This document shows, in pieces, positions 1-10,486 of a stretch of 64,000 nucleotides of DNA. A model generated the notes under the pieces. That model saw only the letters and a list, made by a program, of their open reading frames with translations, did not search any database and was not told the DNA's origin. The DNA is from Paracoccaceae bacterium. Lineage in GTDB: Bacteria > Pseudomonadota > Alphaproteobacteria > Rhodobacterales > Rhodobacteraceae. A program made the translations under genes and the position numbers. The stretch is from the NCBI GenBank assembly GCA_020446815.1, contig JAGRDY010000008.1:62001-126000 (forward strand). The letters are read 5' to 3'. Numbering within the stretch: position 1 is the first letter of the stretch; the number at the start of each line of letters is the position of its first letter.

Positions 1-1350
1 AGATTCCTCACCGATGTTGTCCGCATCTTCGCACTCACTCACCGGGTCCGGTTTAGACGGCCGGGAAATCTCGTATTTCTTGAGATCGAGCACACTGGAC
101 ATTTCAGCGCTTTCCTCGGCTCCCTCTTCCTCTTCAAAACAATCATCCTCGACCGAGGATGCCATGTCGATAATCTGCTGCGCGGGCGTTGCCGCGACGG
201 CGCGGCCTGAGGCAGATTTCTGTTCTTCCAACGTTTCAGCGGATTCGCCGGTATTCTCTTCAGCGTCATCACTCAATGCAGCTGTCAATGCGTCCTCATA
301 TTCGGCGTCAGACTCCACCGGATCAGCCTCGCCGGCCATGTCTTGACCCAACCCGCCACTTTCGCCGGCCTCAGTCGCCACGACATCATCACCGGATAGC
401 GCTGCGACACGGGTTTCGGTCGGTTCAGTGTTCGCGTCCTCGGTTGCGGTAACCATATCGGGGCCAGCGCGCCCCGGGCGGCGGCTTTGTGCAGGTTCGA
501 CCCTGGCTGGTCTTACCGGCGAAACCCGGGCAGGTTGAACCGCGGGTTGGGCAACTGCATCTTCACAGGGCGGAGCCTCCGGATTTGGCAGGGACAGCCC
601 CGATTTGCCAGATGCCTGGGCGACCTCTGATGCTATGGTCTGTAGCGTTTCGATCAGGGCCTCACCGCCGCTGCTGGCCATCAGTTCGTCTTCATCTTCC
701 GCCTGACAGGCGCGTATGGCGTCGGTTGCAGAGAACATGATGATCGAGCGGAACTTGTCGCCGGTTTCGCGTTCCAGACGCTGCCTGACGCGGCCGCGAT
801 CGCGTTCGCCCAATTTGTCCGAGCGGGTGGCCAGCAGGATGCTGTTTGCCTGCAAATGCCCGGGTATCGTGGCCCAGACACTGCGTTCGCTTTCGCGCCA
901 GGCCTGGGTCGCATGGGTACACCAGATCACACCGTCAACATATTCAACGACAGCGGAGCGGTAATGATCGGGGATATTGGGATCGGAAATACCGGGTGTG
1001 TCGATCAGATCCATTTCCAACAGCACGTCGGCGTCGCAAAACAGCTTGATATATCGAACACCATCGACGGGAACCGAATGAAGGTTATCAATATCAAGAT
1101 CATGCTGGTTCCCCTCCAGGTCCACATAATGGGCCGCGCGTTCGCCAAAACTCATCCACACCGGGGGAAGCTGCGTCGCGGTGACCCTGGTCGGAAGAAG
1201 ATCTTCGCCAAGCAGGAAATTGATCAGCGTCGTTTTACCCGCACTGAATTCTCCCATTAGGGCGATGCAGGGCAGACGGGGCTGTTCCACCGCGCCAGTG
1301 ATCAGAGCGGAATCCTGAATCGTCCGAGGTTCAAAGCTCAAGTCATCCAT
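1..1350 (-). CDS. Dynamin-family GTPase A (C-terminus cut by window edge)
   Basis: The reading frame starts at ATG 1350 and stays open for 450 codons to the left edge, so the C-terminus is missing. Visible GTPase motifs are a P-loop GEFSAGKT at residues 33-40, a DTPG switch-II motif at 117-120 and TRSD (G4-like) at 175-178. The GEFSxGKT form is typical of bacterial dynamin-like proteins. After about residue 270 the sequence becomes low-complexity, rich in Glu, Asp, Ser, Thr and Ala, and looks disordered. AAGGAA lies about 8 nt before the start. The gene follows the second GTPase gene with an 11-nt gap, so the two are probably cotranscribed. Bacterial dynamins remodel or bind membranes, and tandem pairs are known to work together. 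The specific role here is unknown. Confidence 0.8.
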   Translation of the reverse strand, partial: MDDLSFEPRTIQDSALITGAVEQPRLPCIALMGEFSAGKTTLINFLLGEDLLPTRVTATQLPPVWMSFGERAAHYVDLEGNQHDLDIDNLHSVPVDGVRYIKLFCDADVLLEMDLIDTPGISDPNIPDHYRSAVVEYVDGVIWCTHATQAWRESERSVWATIPGHLQANSILLATRSDKLGERDRGRVRQRLERETGDKFRSIIMFSATDAIRACQAEDEDELMASSGGEALIETLQTIASEVAQASGKSGLSLPNPEAPPCEDAVAQPAVQPARVSPVRPARVEPAQSRRPGRAGPDMVTATEDANTEPTETRVAALSGDDVVATEAGESGGLGQDMAGEADPVESDAEYEDALTAALSDDAEENTGESAETLEEQKSASGRAVAATPAQQIIDMASSVEDDCFEEEEGAEESAEMSSVLDLKKYEISRPSKPDPVSECEDADNIGEES

Positions 1351-1361
1351 CTGTTCGTTCC

Positions 1362-3386
1362 TTATGCTGCCTCGTCTTCGAGATCCCGAAGGATTTCGCC
1401 GAAAATCGATTGTGCGTCTGTGGATTGCACCGCCGCCAAAGTGTCGATTGCTTGCGCTCTTCCCTGCTCGGCATCGTTTTGAAGCCGGCGGATGGTTTCC
1501 TGATGCTCGCCCATGAACGCCTTGAAAGTCGACCGGATACTTTCCAGAACGGCTGCCGCCTGAACATCTTCCAGATCCTGCGCGATCGAGGCTGCCTCAG
1601 CACGGATAAGATGCGCATAATCATTGGCGAAGGCTTCGAAACCGCGACGCTTTTGCCACCATGTACGCCACCAGCTGCTTTGCAGATCGAGGGCGATGGT
1701 CTTACCCAGGCCAACAGGCGGCGGGACAACCGGTGGATGGGGGGCTTCAATCTGGAAATCCGGCAGATTATCGCCCAGAACCGCACGATAGACCGCCTCG
1801 ACGCTATTGGCGGCTTCGTCATATAATTTCGTTGTCCTCGAGCGAACCGCCCTGGAAAAATTGGAATAAGCGGCGCGCTGCAAGACCCGCAACCCGGCGG
1901 GATCGTAGTTCCAGGTGCCCTGCTCGCCGAATTTTTCCAGATAGGCGATCAGTGAATCGGTGGCGCGTTTCACAAACCCGGACTGCGCGGTATCCAACCT
2001 TGCGCGAAGATCGCTGCGCAGGCCCTTGGTCAGTTCGTCAATCTGCTGCGAAAACCGTTTGGTGATGTCATCAATGGCTTGCACAGGGTCATCGCCAGGA
2101 ATGTCGGCTTTGCACGATTCGGCCGACCGCCGGGAAACGATCGTCGCGCGTGCTTCGTTGGTGAGGTTGCGCGCACTTCGGCATACGCGCGAGTAAAGCC
2201 GCTGCGCGCTGCCTTCGCAGATTCGTTCGCCTATCGACTGCAAGAGCGCGGGTAAGCCCGAAGCAGCCCAGGTGGCATCGACGATATCCATTTGCGCCAG
2301 GTCGGGCTGGCTGTCGATATAGGTATCCAGGCAGGCTTTCGAATCGGCCGATACATTGTCGAATTCACCTGTCAGCGCCGCTTCGGCCCAGATGGCGCTA
2401 CCGAATATGACTGAAACATCGGAATCGATACGGTTCGCCTTAAGCGTAGCGAGAATGCCGTCACGAATTTCGGGAATCTGTTCGACCGGCGCGCTCAGTT
2501 CATCGACCCGGTTGACGAAGATGATCGTCTGGCGCTTGTCGAGTGTCGAAATGATGCGCATCAACGCCATGTCCGTCGTCGTCAGCGCCTGGTGAGCAGA
2601 CAACACGACCACGCAAATCTCCGACCCGCGCAGACTGCGGATGGTGATCTGTTCGCGCATCATGAATGTATCGTTGACGCCGGGCGTGTCGCATAATTGC
2701 AATGGCATCGCATAGGCCGGAATATCCAGATATAGATCCGCCGATTTGGTGATGTCGGCAAACCGCCCGGTCTTGGCGTTCACATCCCCCATGTCCGGGT
2801 CATCGCCCAGGCAGACATACCGCTCCATCAGCTCTGTATCGACATAGCCGTAGGAATGGCTCTGCCCCAAGAGCAGCTCAAAATGCTTGCCCAGGCGCTT
2901 TTCCGTTGCCCTGCGCATTGCCTCGACCTGTTTCTGGATGCCCTGCATTTCCTCCGGGGCGCCGGCGCGCTCGGCCAACTCACCCAGGCGCCCGCCGCCG
3001 ACGACGAGGTTGGACCATTCATTCTTGTCGAAAAAGGTGAACTGGGCCTTCGTCGCTTCCGGTGCGGAGTTGTCTGCCGACGCCTTCGTGTTGATCATCG
3101 CGGTGGTCACCACCGATGTCCACGGGTTCACATCAGACGGCAACAAACCGGGAGAGCCGATCAAAACATTGGTCAATGCGGATTTGCCAGCCTTCACCTG
3201 ACCGACCAGAGTGACCTTGGCGGCGAATTCCTTCAATTTTCCACGCAATGCCGCGGCGCGTGCCGCAGTTCGCTGATCCGACAGCGATTCCAGCTGTTCG
3301 AGCCGACGCGACAGCTTGGCGAATGATTCGGTTGCCTTGGCTGTGGCCTCGTTCCCGGCCGACAAAAGATGTGCGTTCTTTACCAT
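1362..3386 (-). CDS. Dynamin-family GTPase B
   Basis: This 674-residue protein has a dynamin-type GTPase domain: P-loop GQVKAGKS at residues 62-69, DTPGVND at 233-239 and NRVD (G4) at 292-295. The remaining C-terminal half, about 350 residues, is probably mostly helical, as expected of a dynamin stalk, with a Trp/Arg-rich stretch (SSWWRTWW) that could contact membrane. The start is ATG 3386, preceded by GGGGTGA. It sits between a small unknown gene and GTPase A on the same strand, all reading away from the kinase/FHA/phosphatase genes. By analogy with paired bacterial dynamins, A and B may form a hetero-oligomer. That is inference. Confidence 0.85.
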   Translation of the reverse strand: MVKNAHLLSAGNEATAKATESFAKLSRRLEQLESLSDQRTAARAAALRGKLKEFAAKVTLVGQVKAGKSALTNVLIGSPGLLPSDVNPWTSVVTTAMINTKASADNSAPEATKAQFTFFDKNEWSNLVVGGGRLGELAERAGAPEEMQGIQKQVEAMRRATEKRLGKHFELLLGQSHSYGYVDTELMERYVCLGDDPDMGDVNAKTGRFADITKSADLYLDIPAYAMPLQLCDTPGVNDTFMMREQITIRSLRGSEICVVVLSAHQALTTTDMALMRIISTLDKRQTIIFVNRVDELSAPVEQIPEIRDGILATLKANRIDSDVSVIFGSAIWAEAALTGEFDNVSADSKACLDTYIDSQPDLAQMDIVDATWAASGLPALLQSIGERICEGSAQRLYSRVCRSARNLTNEARATIVSRRSAESCKADIPGDDPVQAIDDITKRFSQQIDELTKGLRSDLRARLDTAQSGFVKRATDSLIAYLEKFGEQGTWNYDPAGLRVLQRAAYSNFSRAVRSRTTKLYDEAANSVEAVYRAVLGDNLPDFQIEAPHPPVVPPPVGLGKTIALDLQSSWWRTWWQKRRGFEAFANDYAHLIRAEAASIAQDLEDVQAAAVLESIRSTFKAFMGEHQETIRRLQNDAEQGRAQAIDTLAAVQSTDAQSIFGEILRDLEDEAA

Positions 3387-3442
3387 AATTTCAATTCACC
3401 CCAATTTTCGCACCCAAACACACGGGCGCGGACATGACGGCA

Positions 3443-3826
3443 TCAAGCCGCCATTCGAGCGGCCCCCTTCAATTCCAGGCGTTCAGTCGTATTGATTGCC
3501 GCCTTGGCCAGATCAATGCGTTCGGCCCATGCGGCATCGTTCGAAAACCCTTTGACAACAAAGCGGATGCTTCTGAACACAGCCCCGTTCTCCAGGCACA
3601 GGATTGTCTCACTTCCTTGAAAATCCGGTGTTTTTGCGCCTTCAGGTATCGGCATTTTCTTGTTTGCGAACAGATAGCTTTTTCCACCATATTGCTTAAA
3701 GACGAAGGCCATGCCGATGCCCGGAAACAGGTTTTCGAGTTTCACGAATTCAGCAGCCAATGCCGAATGAAGGCACCGCATGTTTATGTTCTGGCGCCCG
3801 TCAACGAGGCACTTGTCAGTATCCAT
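3443..3826 (-). CDS. Small protein of unknown function upstream of the dynamin pair
   Basis: This 127-residue reading frame starts at ATG 3826 and ends 56 nt before the GTPase B start. I do not recognise the family. The protein is soluble, with no signal peptide or membrane segment. It contains three cysteines (CLVDG, RCLH, ILCLE) and a central part that reads like a small beta-rich domain (AFVFKQYGG, SYLFANKKMP). It is the first gene of the probable small-protein/GTPase B/GTPase A operon. The ribosome-binding site is weak. It could be a partner of the GTPases. Coding status rests on its operon position and natural composition. Confidence 0.55.
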   Translation of the reverse strand: MDTDKCLVDGRQNINMRCLHSALAAEFVKLENLFPGIGMAFVFKQYGGKSYLFANKKMPIPEGAKTPDFQGSETILCLENGAVFRSIRFVVKGFSNDAAWAERIDLAKAAINTTERLELKGAARMAA

Positions 3827-4492
3827 TTCGGTCTCTTTATGTGCTACTTAGGAACCAGTGTCCTCGCTCAGCCAATATCGTCATCGGAATCGCTACGCTG
3901 AGAATGTGGCGACATCGCGTCGTGAAAGTGACCCAGTGGGTTCTTTTTAGCGTAAACAATGACTTCGGTTCGCGGCATCGGTGCGGCTCCTGGCCCGGCC
4001 CGGCACGCTGGGGCCGATGGCGGCCCCCCGCCACAGGCGAAGCGAAAGGCAAGCCCGGCTGACTTTCATGACGTTTTGGGGAAATGATGCGCCTCTTGCC
4101 GCATCGGGCCGTGACTTTGCCGTCGGCAGTACGGGTGAGATAACCCCGCGCAAGTTTTATTGTGAACGATCTGCCCTGGCCCCGAATTGCCGACAACCAT
4201 CCCCGACGCTCGCGGCACCGAATTGAAGACGTTTCGGCTTTTGTCGCCTTAAGTATCGAAATCGGAAACAAAAACCCCAAAGAAGGGAATTGTCACACTT
4301 GTCCGTTATTAAGTCACGTCCCTGCCCAATTTTCGCCGGGTTCAACAATAATTGTGCGGCTGAGGAATTGCTTCGTGATCATGAACGAAGGCGGCTTGGC
4401 ACTCGGAATGCGGGGTATTTCTGACCGCGGAATGCCAAGAAACTTTTGGGCGGGGCGATCGAAATAGGCATTGAGGCCGAAGGGATTTGAGT
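3827..4492. promoter_or_regulatory. Divergent intergenic region between the GTPase and kinase operons
   Basis: This 666-bp region should hold the promoters of both divergent operons. Frames crossing it have implausible composition and I see no gene. Two inverted repeats stand out: a perfect 7-bp stem with a 4-nt loop (GGGGCCG/CGGCCCC, 4010-4027), not followed by a T-tract on either strand, and arms CTTGGCA/TGCCAAG (4395-4401 and 4433-4439) 54-98 bp before the kinase start, which could be an operator. No sigma-factor box was assigned. Confidence 0.4.
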
Positions 4493-6913
4493 ATGGGACA
4501 GGAGAAACTCGCCGCAGCAGAGTTGCCTCTGGACGGTTTTGTGGACGAGCTCGATCCCGGCACGAAGTTGATGAACGGCCAGTATACCATTACCCGCTTT
4601 CTGAATAATGGCGGCTTTGGCATCACCTACCTGGCCAAAGACAGTCTCGATCGCGACGTGGTCATCAAGGAATGTTTTCCAAATGCGTTTTGCCGACGTA
4701 GCCAGACATTGGTGGCTGCGCGTTCGCGTGCCCATCAAGGCGAACTTCGCGCGGTTGTGAAGCTGTTCGTTCAGGAAGCCCGGAATCTGTCAAAACTTAT
4801 CCACCCCAATATCGTCGGTGTGCACCAGGTCTTTGAAGACAATGGCACTGCCTATATGGCCATCGACTATATCAAAGGGCGCGACCTGCTCCAGCTGATC
4901 GAGGATGACAACGTAACGCTGCATCCCGAGCATATCGTGCAAATGGCCAGAAAGATGATTTCGGCCGTTGGCTTTGTCCACGATCACAGCGTCCTGCATC
5001 GCGATATCTCGCCGGACAATATTCTACTGACCGATACGGGCGAACCGATCTTGATCGATTTCGGAGCCGCGCGCGAACAGGCCTCGAAGAAAAGTCGTGC
5101 CCTGACAGCACTTCGCGTCGTGAAGGATGGCTATTCACCCCAGGAATTCTACATCGCCGGCAGCGAGCAAGGCCCCTGGAGCGATCTCTATGCACTCGCG
5201 GCGACCTTCTACCACCTCATCAGCCGTGAAACGCCTGTCAATGGGCAACTGCGGCTTTCGGCGCTGGCGCAGGGCAAACCTGACCCCTATGTGCCGCTGG
5301 CAGGCAGGGTTGCGGGCTACCCGGACGGCTTCCTAGAAGCGATCGACAAGGCAATGCAAACCCTGCCACGCAATCGGGTGCAAACCGCCCATGAATGGCT
5401 GCAAATACTTGATAATCCGCCGGATGCGCCCGTAGTTTCGGCTATACCCGTTGGGCCGGACGCGCCTGCGTCGGTCGATGGTGAACCCGAAGTCGCTATC
5501 GCCCGCATGATCGCCCAGGCCGATGACATACCGACCCCAGAGGTCGTTGAAGCGCCTGCCGACACAAGTGAAACCGTTGAGGAAACACCAGCAACCAGGC
5601 CCATCATAAATCCCGAAATCGCCCACCGCTTTGCGGAGCTGACGGTTCCACTGGACCCCGAACCAGAAGATGACCCGGACGAAATCGACCCGGATATGGA
5701 TGAGGTACCGGATTCCGATACGATGATCGCGGTGCAATCGCCACCGGCCCCGGAAGAAAAGATCGTTCCCCAGCGTCCGAAGCGGCCGACATCCGTCAGA
5801 AGGCCGGCACTCGATCTCGCGCGGCCCGCTCCGGCCCGTCCCGCCCCGCTTTGCCCGGTAAAACCGGCCCGCTCGCGCGGCTATCTGTCGACTGCGACGG
5901 CGATACTGGTGACGATCTCTGCCGGGCTCGTCGCATTTACCTATTTGGGGTTGCCAGAACCCACGGCAGCCGTGCCGACAGATCAGACAGCCCCTGCCAA
6001 AGCGCCCCTGGCCAAAACGACTCCGGTAGAACCGACAACCTCGGCCGGGCTATCGGCACCTGAACCGTTTTCCGAAACCAAAGCGCCCGGCGAGGATGTT
6101 GCCAACCCCGTCGCGGCGGAGGTCAGAACATCGACGAAGGTCACGGTTTCACCCTTGCCGCAGGCCAAACCCGTCTTCGCACAGCAAGAGCCTGCACCAG
6201 AGCCAGTGGCAGTCGCGAAAATCGTGTCAGAGGTTCTGCACGAAACGACCCCGGCCACCGAAGCGAAAGCGCTACCGGAAAAAGTGGTCGAATCGCCCGC
6301 ACCGGTGGCGGTTGCCGAAATCCAGATCAGTTTCGCCAAATGGGATGTGAAACTTCCTTTCGAGGAACGACCTGCCATACGCAATGGCGAACAGGTGGCC
6401 GTCGTCACCCGTGTTCTTCCCCAAGCCAATTCGAGCGGTGCCGAGGCATGGCTTAGGCCAGCAACGACAATCATTGCAGTCAATGGCAACGAACTGCCAA
6501 TGGGTGCGTCCGCCGCATCGGCAGCGCCGACCGATCTGACCATCGACTATGACGGATCGGCGCGTGTGACATTCCAGTACCTGAATCCGGGCGAGGAAAA
6601 GCCTGCGAAGGGATCTGTCTCGGTGCCTGCCATCCGCCGTGTCGGCCTGATCGATGGGACCGATTTCGCCATCAAGGTCATTGAGGGCAAATGGCAGACG
6701 ATCGTGACCTCAACGCCAGAAGGTGTGACCGGAGGCCTGCGCCCCGGCGACATCCTTGTTCGCGAACTGGGGCAGGACATGCCGGTCAATGCCCCGGACT
6801 CATTTGAAAAGATTATCGCCATCGCCGCTGGCAACAAGACGCCGGAAATCGAGTTCAACCTGTTTCGCAACAAGACAATGACAACGGTCTGGATGCCATT
6901 GGCGTCCGAATAA
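4493..6913 (+). CDS. Membrane-anchored Ser/Thr protein kinase with extracytoplasmic PDZ-like tail
   Basis: An 806-residue eukaryotic-type kinase. The N-terminal kinase domain (about 25-300) has a glycine loop NNGGFG, catalytic Lys59 in VVIKE, a Glu near 95, HRD at 169-171 with Asn176 and DFG at 189-191, so it should be active. A Pro/Glu-rich linker follows, then one membrane segment at about 463-483. Residues after about 620 are predicted to be periplasmic; two stretches resemble PDZ folds (VVTRVLPQANS; GGLRPGDILV). ATG 4493 is preferred over TTG 4487 because AAGGG lies 8 nt upstream. It heads a kinase/FHA/PP2C set, a complete phosphosignalling circuit. The same trio regulates type VI secretion in other bacteria (PpkA/Fha/PppA), but no secretion gene is seen here. 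Confidence 0.9.
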   Translation: MGQEKLAAAELPLDGFVDELDPGTKLMNGQYTITRFLNNGGFGITYLAKDSLDRDVVIKECFPNAFCRRSQTLVAARSRAHQGELRAVVKLFVQEARNLSKLIHPNIVGVHQVFEDNGTAYMAIDYIKGRDLLQLIEDDNVTLHPEHIVQMARKMISAVGFVHDHSVLHRDISPDNILLTDTGEPILIDFGAAREQASKKSRALTALRVVKDGYSPQEFYIAGSEQGPWSDLYALAATFYHLISRETPVNGQLRLSALAQGKPDPYVPLAGRVAGYPDGFLEAIDKAMQTLPRNRVQTAHEWLQILDNPPDAPVVSAIPVGPDAPASVDGEPEVAIARMIAQADDIPTPEVVEAPADTSETVEETPATRPIINPEIAHRFAELTVPLDPEPEDDPDEIDPDMDEVPDSDTMIAVQSPPAPEEKIVPQRPKRPTSVRRPALDLARPAPARPAPLCPVKPARSRGYLSTATAILVTISAGLVAFTYLGLPEPTAAVPTDQTAPAKAPLAKTTPVEPTTSAGLSAPEPFSETKAPGEDVANPVAAEVRTSTKVTVSPLPQAKPVFAQQEPAPEPVAVAKIVSEVLHETTPATEAKALPEKVVESPAPVAVAEIQISFAKWDVKLPFEERPAIRNGEQVAVVTRVLPQANSSGAEAWLRPATTIIAVNGNELPMGASAASAAPTDLTIDYDGSARVTFQYLNPGEEKPAKGSVSVPAIRRVGLIDGTDFAIKVIEGKWQTIVTSTPEGVTGGLRPGDILVRELGQDMPVNAPDSFEKIIAIAAGNKTPEIEFNLFRNKTMTTVWMPLASE

Positions 6914-7024
6914 CGAGTGAGTGACAGTACAGAAAACCACCAATAGGCCTGATGGGCTCTGAATGAAATGTGACAACGCCTGAAAAATGCGAAAGCGACA
7001 GGCAGCAAAGCAAAAGGTGAAACC

Positions 7025-8092
7025 GTGACAAATCACAATAGCCCCTTGGCGCGTTGGACCGCCAGCAAGCATTCAACGGATTCCGCAAGCAATCCGGTCG
7101 AGCAAACGCCTGGCAAGCGCAAGTTCATTTCGCCGCTCAATCTTTTTGCCAGACCGCCGCAGGCGATACCGCCCGCCGCCCAGACATCTGGCCTGGATGA
7201 AAACGACACCGTCGATATCCGTGATGACGAACCCTCGCTTTCGGATCTCATGTCACAGATCAATCCGCCCGAAACACCTGCCGATACTCCTGCGTCGGAC
7301 GCTGGCGACGACACGGTTGATCTCGCATCGGACTTGCAATTCGTCGAACTGGACGACGACTTGGAAATGCATCCGGTTGACGCGGATGTATTGGCCAATG
7401 TTACGGAACAGGCTGAGAAAACCATCGCCGCCGAGGAAGAATCATGGACTTCAGGCTCCGATGAGGATGCCACTCCAGAAGAACCCTCCGGTCTGGCCGA
7501 TGCTGTGGCTCCGGCGGCCAAAGCCGAGAGTGCGCCCGCGGTCGAGGCAGTTGTGCCTGCAACACCCGCCGTTACGCCAGAAATCGAGACAACCCAGGAC
7601 GTTCCCGCGCCAGTGGCGGCGACGCCCCCGCGTGCGCGCAGCAGTAGCCGCGTCAAGACGACTTTCCTTGGCTTCGAGCATTCGGATGGACGCATCGAGG
7701 ATGTTTTTGACCGGGCGCGCGAATCCGTTTCCGCCGAACGCGTCAAGTTCCCGGTGGGCTGGATGGTTATTGTTGACGGGCCGGGCCGCGGCACCAGTTT
7801 CACGTTGCTGACAGGGGTTTCCCAGATTGGCCGGGGCGACGATCAGGCCGTGCAACTCGACTTCGGCGACAATGGCATTTCGCGCAGCAATCATGCGGCG
7901 GTCGCCTATGATGACGAAGAACGCAAATTCTATCTTGGCCACGGAGGCAAGTCGAATATTGTCCGGCTAAACGGCAAACCCGTGCTGAGCACCGAACCCT
8001 TGGAAGATGGCGATCAAATCCGCATCGGTGAAACCACGCTGAACTTTGTCGCCTTCTGCGGGACGCATTTCACCTGGTCAGCCAAGAATTGA
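7025..8092 (+). CDS. FHA-domain protein with acidic disordered N-terminus
   Basis: This 355-residue protein has a long acidic, probably disordered N-terminal region and a C-terminal FHA phosphothreonine-binding domain at about 246-345. FHA hallmarks are IGRG, ISRSNHA, and NGKP ahead of a GDQIRIG strand. The disordered part carries two near-identical DTVD(I/L) motifs centred on Thr62 and Thr97, which have Ile or Leu at +3 and therefore look like possible FHA ligands once phosphorylated. The start is GTG 7025 with AAGGTG upstream. The gene lies 111 nt after the kinase and overlaps the region just before the phosphatase start. It probably reads or relays the kinase signal, possibly as substrate and sensor in one. 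No membrane segment is visible. Confidence 0.85.
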   Translation: MTNHNSPLARWTASKHSTDSASNPVEQTPGKRKFISPLNLFARPPQAIPPAAQTSGLDENDTVDIRDDEPSLSDLMSQINPPETPADTPASDAGDDTVDLASDLQFVELDDDLEMHPVDADVLANVTEQAEKTIAAEEESWTSGSDEDATPEEPSGLADAVAPAAKAESAPAVEAVVPATPAVTPEIETTQDVPAPVAATPPRARSSSRVKTTFLGFEHSDGRIEDVFDRARESVSAERVKFPVGWMVIVDGPGRGTSFTLLTGVSQIGRGDDQAVQLDFGDNGISRSNHAAVAYDDEERKFYLGHGGKSNIVRLNGKPVLSTEPLEDGDQIRIGETTLNFVAFCGTHFTWSAKN

Positions 8093-8103
8093 AAGAGGGG
8101 CGG

Positions 8104-8871
8104 ATGATGTACGATATTGCCGCCGCCGCCAGCAAGGGTCGGCGCGACTATCAGGAAGATGCCGTTGCGATCGACTTTCAGGAACATGACGGCCCCGGAT
8201 TTGTCGTGTTGGCCGATGGCATGGGCGGGCACGAGGCAGGCGATGTCGCCAGCAGGATCGTGGTTTCCGAATTCGCCGACATCCTCAAGGAACGGCTTTA
8301 TGACGAACCCTGCGAGGTTTCGAGCATCCCCGAAATTCTCAAACAAGCGACCATCGCGGCCAATGCATCCATTGCATCCTATGTCGCGCGCAATCGTGAC
8401 GTGGCGGGAATGGGGACCACGCTTTTGGCGCCGGTTCTGGCCAATGGGCATCTCTACTGGGTATCGGTGGGTGATTCGCCCCTGTTTCTGTTCGACGGCG
8501 AAAATCTGCGTCAGGTCAACGAGGATCATTCGCTGGCGCCACAAATCGACCTGATGGTCAAATCCGGCATGCTCGATGCCGAAACCGCGCGTCACCATCC
8601 TGACCGGAATTGCCTGACATCGGTGCTGATGGGAAGGGAAATCGCCAAGATGGATTGTAACAAACCCCCGCTCGAACTGCGGCCCGGCAATATCGTTATC
8701 GTGTCAAGCGATGGCTTGCAGTTCCTCAGCAATCAAGAGATTCAGGACATTGTCAAGAAACACCGTGATTGCAGAAGCAGCGAACTGGTTGATGCCTTGA
8801 TGCAGGCGGTCGAGGATCTCGGCGATCCGGATCAGGACAATATTTCCTTTGCGGTGATCAAGGTCAAATAG
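8104..8871 (+). CDS. PP2C-family Ser/Thr protein phosphatase
   Basis: A 255-residue PPM/PP2C phosphatase that should remove phosphates placed by the neighbouring kinase. The metal-binding motifs are all present: DYQEDA near the N-terminus, ADGMGGHEAGD, GMGTTL, VGDSPLF, SSDGL and DQDN near the C-terminus. The length matches a stand-alone bacterial catalytic domain (about 240-260). AGAGG precedes two adjacent ATG codons at 8104 and 8107; a TTG at 8089 is less likely. The gene begins 11 nt after the FHA stop, so it belongs to the same operon. It is the last gene of the kinase set; a 7-bp stem follows its stop. Confidence 0.9.
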   Translation: MMYDIAAAASKGRRDYQEDAVAIDFQEHDGPGFVVLADGMGGHEAGDVASRIVVSEFADILKERLYDEPCEVSSIPEILKQATIAANASIASYVARNRDVAGMGTTLLAPVLANGHLYWVSVGDSPLFLFDGENLRQVNEDHSLAPQIDLMVKSGMLDAETARHHPDRNCLTSVLMGREIAKMDCNKPPLELRPGNIVIVSSDGLQFLSNQEIQDIVKKHRDCRSSELVDALMQAVEDLGDPDQDNISFAVIKVK

Positions 8872-9358: not shown

Positions 9359-10486
9359 ATGAAAACCCGTGCCGCCGTGGCGCTTGCAGCCGGCAAGCCG
9401 CTGGAAATCATGGAAGTGAACCTCGATGGCCCCAAAGCGGGGGAGGTTCTGGTGGAAATCAAGGCCACCGGCATTTGCCATACCGATGAATTCACCCTGT
9501 CTGGCGCGGATCCGGAAGGGTTGTTTCCGGCAATCCTTGGCCATGAAGGCGCGGGCGTGGTGGTCGATGTCGGCCCCGGTGTCGGCAGCCTGAAAAAGGG
9601 CGACCATGTCATTCCGCTTTACACGCCGGAATGCCGGGCCTGCCCGTCCTGCCTGAGCCAGAAAACCAACCTTTGCACCTCGATCCGGGCAACGCAAGGT
9701 CAGGGGGTCATGCCCGACGGAACCAGCCGGTTTTCGACCCTCGATGGCGACCCGATCCTGCATTACATGGGATGTTCGACCTTTTCCAACTACACCGTAT
9801 TGCCGGAAATTGCGGTCGCGAAGGTGCGCGAAGACGCCCCCTTCGACAAGATCTGCTATATCGGCTGCGGCGTTACCACCGGGGTCGGCGCCGTGATCAA
9901 CACGGCAAAGGTGGAAATCGGGGCCAAGGCGGTGGTCTTCGGCTTGGGCGGCATCGGGCTCAACGTGATCCAGGGGCTGCGGCTGGCCGGGGCCGACATG
10001 ATCATCGGCGTCGATCTCAACAATGAAAAAAAGGCCTGGGGTGAAAAATTCGGCATGACGCATTTCGTCAATCCGACGGATTGCGAAAATGTCGTGCGGG
10101 AAATCGTCAACATGACGAAAACCCCCTTCGATCAGATCGGCGGGGCGGATTATTCGTTCGACTGCACCGGAAATGTGAAGGTGATGCGCGACGCGCTGGA
10201 ATGTACCCATCGCGGCTGGGGGCAGTCGATCATCATCGGCGTTGCCCCCTCTGGCGCGGTGATAGAAACCCGGCCCTTCCAGCTTGTCACCGGGCGGGTC
10301 TGGAAAGGCACGGCTTTCGGCGGCGCGCGGGGACGCACGGATGTGCCCAAGATCGTCGATTGGTATATGGAAGGAAAAATCCAGATCGACCCGATGATCA
10401 CCCATAGGCTTAAGCTCGATGAGATCAACAAGGGGTTCGATCTGATGCACGCCGGGGAATCGATCCGTTCGGTCGTACTTTACTGA
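9359..10486 (+). CDS. adhI: S-(hydroxymethyl)glutathione dehydrogenase / class III alcohol dehydrogenase
   Basis: A 375-residue zinc-dependent dehydrogenase that oxidises the formaldehyde-glutathione adduct to S-formylglutathione with NAD. The catalytic zinc site is visible as GICHTDE with GHEGAG, the structural zinc cysteines in the ECRACPSCLSQKTNLC region, and the NAD fold as GLGGIGLNV. Length and sequence match GSH-FDH enzymes such as Paracoccus/Rhodobacter AdhI (FlhA). The start is supported by AAGGAGG about 8 nt upstream. The gene stands alone; the partner S-formylglutathione hydrolase is not in the window. Its product leads towards formate, the substrate of the two dehydrogenases encoded at 22-46 kb, a functional rather than operon link. 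It could also act on S-nitrosoglutathione. Confidence 0.93.
   Translation: MKTRAAVALAAGKPLEIMEVNLDGPKAGEVLVEIKATGICHTDEFTLSGADPEGLFPAILGHEGAGVVVDVGPGVGSLKKGDHVIPLYTPECRACPSCLSQKTNLCTSIRATQGQGVMPDGTSRFSTLDGDPILHYMGCSTFSNYTVLPEIAVAKVREDAPFDKICYIGCGVTTGVGAVINTAKVEIGAKAVVFGLGGIGLNVIQGLRLAGADMIIGVDLNNEKKAWGEKFGMTHFVNPTDCENVVREIVNMTKTPFDQIGGADYSFDCTGNVKVMRDALECTHRGWGQSIIIGVAPSGAVIETRPFQLVTGRVWKGTAFGGARGRTDVPKIVDWYMEGKIQIDPMITHRLKLDEINKGFDLMHAGESIRSVVLY

Follow-up and report, generated by a model that had tools for sequence, protein, structure and literature searches.

Bacterial dynamins are widespread, and to our knowledge the control of their activity is poorly known; membrane remodelling regulated by phosphorylation and by GAPs has so far been known in eukaryotes. 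In the threonine phosphorylation pathway of type VI secretion systems (T6SS), the Ser/Thr kinase PpkA, the FHA protein Fha1, and the PP2C phosphatase PppA form a regulatory trio, and FHA domains in general read phosphothreonine together with the residue at +3. Roadblock proteins are known to us as companions of Ras-like or Rag GTPases, not of dynamins. Genes for bacterial dynamin-like proteins (DLPs) are mostly paired in operons (PMC6104087), and MglB is a GAP of MglA (PMC9481161). Kaur et al. (2020; PMC7159879) describe GAP1/DO-GTPase conflict systems, clusters built around a GTPase, some of which include genes for a kinase and a PP2C, and KKP is a prophage-borne phospho-switch of two Ser/Thr kinases and a phosphatase (PMC11341870). 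The original prediction for the locus described here knew of no system that joins dynamin-type GTPases to a kinase/FHA/PP2C trio, and this still stands: within the open-access literature, a scope that leaves most subscription papers outside, no paper was found that joins dynamins to such a trio or to roadblock proteins. We regard the cluster as a real and conserved system for which the searches made here brought up no earlier description.

The window, i.e. the whole stretch of 64,000 nucleotides that was analysed (G000:C22:62001-126000), begins with two GTPase genes and a small gene that are divergent from the genes of a kinase, an FHA protein, and a PP2C phosphatase. All six genes have the positions and strands originally given, as has the 666-bp gap between the two halves (Table 1), and ATG at 4493 is a likelier kinase start than TTG at 4487. 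The stop codon of GTPase A is located 300 bases beyond the left edge, and the leftward extension that had been suggested adds RB, U, and GTPase C on the same strand. The left flank is more of the kinase/dynamin system and not an unrelated operon; beyond C, an opposite-strand run of acyltransferase-like (AAT), unassigned, and decarboxylase genes follows. Both members of the proposed GTPase pair are present, but the description as a pair was too narrow, as three dynamin-family GTPases are accompanied by roadblock-fold and roadblock-like proteins. As shown by relatives, the cluster consists of KIN, FHA, PP2C, C, B, A, RB, and U.

Table 1. Features of the cluster in the window and in its left flank (locus L002)
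Feature	Position and length	Strand	Basis or remark
GTPase A	1-1350, N-terminal 450/549 aa	-	Dynamin_N; open at the window's left edge
GTPase A, remainder	L002:17701-18000, left of window	-	full length 549 aa, end at L002:17701
GTPase B	1362-3386, 674 aa	-	Dynamin_N
Small gene	3443-3826, 127 aa	-	directly upstream of B; conserved in relatives
Divergent control region	3827-4492, 666 bp	.	sequence
Membrane-anchored Ser/Thr kinase	4493-6913, 806 aa	+	Pkinase
FHA protein	7025-8092	+	C-terminal FHA domain, about 7826-8029
KTTFLGF motif	7655-7675	+	ahead of FHA domain; Thr212, Leu at +3
PP2C phosphatase, Stp1/IreP-like	8089-8871	+	PP2C_2
RB	L002:17220-17612, 130 aa	- (past A, left of window)	roadblock fold in homologue's predicted model
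U	L002:16347-17168, 273 aa	- (past A, left of window)	roadblock-like half in homologue's predicted model
GTPase C	L002:14961-16301, 446 aa	- (past A, left of window)	Dynamin_N

The small ORF beside the GTPases is, to judge by its conservation, a real gene, as originally noted: in L117, tblastn detects a copy that lies between the kinase gene and B and shows 57% identity over 127 aa, and in Ruegeria it detects copies directly upstream of B (28-35% over 62-100 aa). Pfam gives no match for it. Against L117, the 666-bp region aligns at 72% along its two ends, up to 3932 and again from 4260 on, and not in the middle; a promoter scan of this region found no sigma-70-like site. An alcohol dehydrogenase gene at 9359-10486 of the window recurs near the cluster in L117 (L117:1214-2338) and, upstream of B, in L069 (L069:1037-2161), with 91-96% identity. 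An empty-site comparison with two genomes of the same genus was uninformative, since the flank genes AAT and ADH are not adjacent there. The genome of the window also harbors a second kinase of the same family together with a PP2C gene and without B (L156:7020-10600; G000:C22 at about 221-225 kb).

The assignment of A and B to the dynamin-type GTPases is borne out by Pfam, with Dynamin_N scores of 41.2 and 40.2 bits, respectively, against a cut-off of 27. In A, the dynamin-family G domain is followed by a long, acidic, and poorly conserved tail; G1 and G3 are each present in 104/104 members and G4 in 98/104. B shows all three motifs in each of its 104 members, and close to the C-terminus its alignment reveals conservation of a stretch rich in Trp and Arg (WW..WW..RRG). 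The best solved structures for the B profile are 5owv (8.5e-10), which we take to be a Campylobacter DLP (cf. PMC6104087), and 2j68 (4.4e-9), the Nostoc BDLP, and a role of B at membranes would follow by analogy from what is known of the dynamin family. C likewise scores above the cut-off (29.4 bits), with G1 in 80 of 86 members and G3 in 47, G3 being missing in the other 39, so that many C proteins may hydrolyse GTP poorly. Numerous rows of the C alignment show G4 as T[HK]xD, and the copy from the genome of the window seems degenerate at this motif.

The identities given to the three proteins of the other half also hold, all of them scoring above the Pfam cut-offs; the catalytic motifs are intact. 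The kinase (Pkinase, 100.4 bits) retains the catalytic Lys, HRD..N, and DFG in 75/75 members, and the PP2C (PP2C_2, 52.3 bits) its motifs in 40, 42, and 42 of 42. With the more specific models, the window kinase reaches 125.2 bits for NF033483 (cut-off 450; kinase domain only) and the PP2C 163.5 bits for NF033484 (below the cut-off of 230). The FHA domain (33.8 bits in Pfam, residues 268-335) carries GR in 69/69 and SR..H in 67/69 proteins. Just ahead of it, T..[LI] is present in 68 of the 69 FHA proteins, the remaining one being gapped there, and Thr212 of KTTFLGF is a candidate phosphothreonine docking site.

In the window kinase, a hydrophobic segment precedes a tail of 319 aa that is probably periplasmic. 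This tail had been called PDZ-like and regarded as the sensor of an extracytoplasmic cue. The former has no backing from Pfam, which gives no match, and HtrA2 PDZ appears at E 0.87 only; the latter fails as a general rule, since a simple hydropathy scan of 79 scored kinases, duplicates included, separates 57 with a hydrophobic segment and a tail of about 270-530 residues from 22 with neither. Other sensor candidates are secreted LysM/SBP_bac_3-like (solute-binding-like) proteins. Their genes stand beside the trio in at least 11 loci with B and in one that has the kinase but no B, a lower bound as many loci end short of that place. The kinase is membrane-anchored in all seven of these loci in which it is complete and scored. 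In membrane-kinase loci, up to three such proteins stand in tandem by PP2C (L065:1793-4718, L066:16172-19721, L033:18506-19768); the single query used found no match of this kind in the window's genome.

For RB and U, sequence searches gave nothing useful, the roadblock family model of Pfam matching 0/15 members of either protein (at 0.5), and predicted models alone were informative; these were built for the proteins of L090 and not for those encoded in the genome of the window. The RB model (41-row alignment, pLDDT 90.3) displays roadblock topology, i.e. the alpha-beta-beta-alpha-beta-beta-beta-alpha order for which it was inspected, and its best Foldseek match is 3kye (roadblock/LC7; E 6.1e-8), with MglB at 2.5e-7. 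RB is hence predicted to be a roadblock-fold protein; the copy in the window's genome is 16-32% identical to 14 other aligned RBs. The U model (47 rows, pLDDT 87.7, pTM 0.57) comprises two domains, the second half showing the roadblock order of elements. Foldseek yielded no match for it at or under 0.001, the best being MglB 6h5b (E about 1e-3, with roughly 133 columns out of 290 residues covered; query-based TM about 0.28).

In a sample of Rhodobacterales genomes, the GTPase half and the kinase half mostly stay together, as the original prediction implied. Among 292 genomes of this order, 95 strong B loci (at least 812 bits, a cut chosen post hoc where the sorted scores show a break) occur in 91 genomes, and a kinase is located within 15 kb of at least 86 of the 95, by which a chance neighbourhood is ruled out. 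Addition of the 12 B places that follow in score (521-690 bits), none of which has a kinase within 15 kb among the kinase matches listed, gives at least 86/107; B places below that group were left out of this count. Kinase and B occur together in 90 genomes, B alone in one, and the kinase alone in six (Fisher p 8e-67, with phylogeny ignored and the kinase profile built from linked loci). Seven of the nine strong B loci lacking a kinase match were examined (those of G182 and G271 were left out). FHA and/or PP2C adjoin B in four of them (L158, L160, L161, L163), L158 having a partial kinase as well; L162 is B-A only, L157 reads C-B-A-RB-U with a 21-residue FHA remnant fused to a shortened C, and L159 is interrupted by the contig start. 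A sample of 120 genomes from the family to which the window belongs gave a B match in 29, a count that includes the genome of the window and a single very weak match. One locus (L168:9768-19200, G167:C6) combines KIN, FHA, C, RB, and U but gives no match for B, and in the same genome a strong B sits in a B-A pair on another contig. In L050:451-14800 (G058), a single KIN-FHA-PP2C-C set is flanked by two B-A pairs.

The halves are linked in four relative arrangements. Of 128 scanned loci, those in which B reaches at least 400 bits were kept (117, of which 113 are distinct); seven of the 117 had been chosen since the kinase seemed missing there. Counting a trio member as present from 40 bits, at least one of KIN, FHA, and PP2C accompanies B in 90 of the 117, 13 loci are cut by ends, and 14 have none nearby. 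The kinase comes first on the same strand in 39 loci, 27 of which have all eight genes in the order KIN-FHA-PP2C-C-B-A-RB-U, and last on the same strand in 43, of which 41, mostly from Ruegeria, have a second B; four loci are divergent like the window and four, from Defluviimonas, convergent. A FastTree phylogeny of B (116 rows, 89 arrangement-labelled; midpoint root, long branches perhaps misplaced) requires at least five changes of arrangement, and all four arrangements are found within the 12-row clade to which the window belongs. B-A-only clades lie outside the clade of linked loci, which indicates that B-A can exist without the trio and that a B-A pair may be the older element, to which the trio was added.

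In the samples searched, the system hardly occurs outside a single family, Rhodobacteraceae. With just two or three candidates scored per genome in either draw, matches at 1e-20 were found in 2/385 genomes of a class-wide sample (that of the window and another from the same family) and in 9/398 of a phylum-wide sample, eight of them in the window's family (own included); the ninth, weaker match (G1075) is a locus showing B and A only. Titles of the best 80 of 498 confirmed relatives in a contig scan name Rhodobacteraceae, to which we take their genera to belong, and two name just an alphaproteobacterium.

A natural fusion connects further components. In L055:5747-7594 (G116:C51), a single frame of 615 aa unites an A-type GTPase, which scores 43 bits for Dynamin_N, with RB, detected by the RB profile at 144.7 bits, and between the two lies a DSP-PTPase domain (76.9 bits). 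This is the sole such case in the 128 scanned loci and in a locus without the trio. It can be argued from this fusion that GTPase, phosphatase, and RB act together, and on the sequence level it ties a GTPase, a protein phosphatase, and RB to each other independently of the trio. In L034 (by Pfam) and L061 (read from sequence), a DSP-PTPase-type phosphatase has a gene of its own, which immediately precedes RB, raising the question whether trio-less DSP-PTPase loci constitute a second, phosphatase-based version of the regulator. RB adjoins an ABC-type ATPase gene in the trio-less loci L034:11407-16136, L061:5968-9303, and L055:4315-7594. Two further trio-less loci, from two genera, show B-A-RB-U directly followed by a motB-like gene and flagellar genes, the flagellar names being read from sequence (L111:13961-21213, L113:14032-21299).

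The kinase/FHA/PP2C, dynamin, and roadblock genes very likely represent one functional unit. The best explanation is a bacterial dynamin machine that is controlled by phosphorylation and assisted by roadblock proteins, to which we assign a probability of roughly 0.58, because of the linkage, the at least five changes of arrangement, the L055 fusion, the RB and U models, the resemblance of B to 5owv and 2j68, the intact motifs, and the KTxxL/I motif. Against this explanation count the 14 loci with B but no trio nearby, the B-A-only clades, the weaker B places that have no kinase near among the matches listed, the single occurrence of the fusion, and that in a trio-less locus, the marginal fold match of U, and the circumstance that roadblock proteins are known to us with other GTPases than dynamins. 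Gene set, linkage, and motifs are consistent with phosphorylation control of the GTPases. We infer a physical complex, a membrane target, and a direction of control as follows. B would form a hetero-oligomer with A (and C) at the inner membrane, like paired bacterial dynamins, and RB and the roadblock-like U would bind the G domains, probably those of A, as GAP, GEF, or scaffold, comparable to MglB and MglA. The kinase would phosphorylate a threonine, for which KTxxL/I of the FHA protein is the best candidate, possibly along with the tail of A. The FHA domain would read the phosphothreonine, whereby the GTPase complex might be assembled or released, and PP2C would reset the phosphorylation state. 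The purpose would most likely be an answer to envelope or membrane stress. More tentative, with somewhat less than even odds, is the idea of a categorically new machine, in which the GTP cycle of a dynamin hetero-oligomer is set by a roadblock GAP/GEF and its assembly is gated by the Thr kinase/FHA/PP2C trio.

Anti-phage defence, in which a kinase/phosphatase switch as in KKP would free membrane-acting dynamins (cf. Leo, DynA) upon infection, appears unlikely. It would suit the patchy presence of the system (strong B in 91/292 genomes), the KKP precedent (PMC11341870), and the phage resistance conferred through DynA (PMC8844932). PADLOC also matches the kinase to the PD-T4-6 and mad6 kinases, yet these matches span just the kinase domain, which is common to many kinases. 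For B, PADLOC gives 39.7 bits with LeoA and 31.3 bits with LeoBC, but both matches are partial; A reaches 25.8 and 14.7 bits, respectively, and no cut-offs are given for these models. The neighbour genes read look metabolic, transport-related, or flagellar, and no phage-protein family matches the GTPases, RB, or U at 0.001. A polarity or motility module akin to MglA/MglB, with A as small switch GTPase, RB/U as GAP, B as effector at septum or pole, and phosphorylation as tuning, is more doubtful still: the RB model matches MglB and flagellar genes follow the cluster in L111 and L113, but flagellar neighbours occur in just 2/5 loci listed gene by gene, and Pfam places A in the dynamin family.

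The most improbable reading is that the trio is the T6SS threonine-phosphorylation pathway (PpkA/Fha/PppA) and merely adjoins dynamin genes. The three protein classes are the same, the window's genome has a VipB gene (G000:C10), and VipB is found in 32/91 genomes with the system vs 48/201 without it (Fisher p 0.049, phylogeny ignored). However, VipB is missing in 59/91 genomes with the system and lies on a different contig in the window's genome, on which grounds a T6SS regulator was rejected; in all 11 genomes (of the 32) whose positions were compared, it is at least 63 kb away, the FHA protein scores 15.6 bits for TagH (cut-off 120.25), and the trio persistently adjoins B.

The cluster makes dynamin control testable, e.g. 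in Ruegeria; if the proposed mechanism is true, it may show bacterial control of dynamin-like GTPases by protein phosphorylation, and, as far as the literature searched shows, roadblock proteins would here be connected with dynamins for the first time.

Compared with described systems, the cluster shares single traits with several. The PASTA kinase/Stp1 pair differs in that the window kinase has no PASTA match in Pfam. KKP is likewise a kinase/phosphatase phospho-switch but is prophage-borne with two kinases, and its abstract (PMC11341870) names neither dynamins nor roadblock proteins. The nearest precedent are the GAP1/DO-GTPase conflict systems (PMC7159879), GTPase-centred clusters like this one, in which, however, the DO-GTPases belong to another TRAFAC family and are partnered with GAP1 and FNIII or GASH; neither DO-GTPase nor GAP1 is among the Pfam matches of the cluster proteins, and the words 'dynamin' and 'roadblock' are absent from that text. 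As in the MglA/MglB polarity switch, a roadblock-fold protein (RB, by its predicted model) adjoins a GTPase gene, but the partner GTPases are of the dynamin family and RB is missed by the Pfam roadblock models. The T6SS threonine phosphorylation pathway employs the same three protein classes, whereas the trio described here is linked to dynamins instead of T6SS genes. Paired bacterial DLPs (Cj-DLP1/2, Nostoc BDLP, LeoA/B/C) resemble the cluster in their adjacent dynamin genes, one of them large; beyond such a pair, the cluster includes another GTPase of the dynamin family, the roadblock proteins, and the kinase/FHA/PP2C trio.
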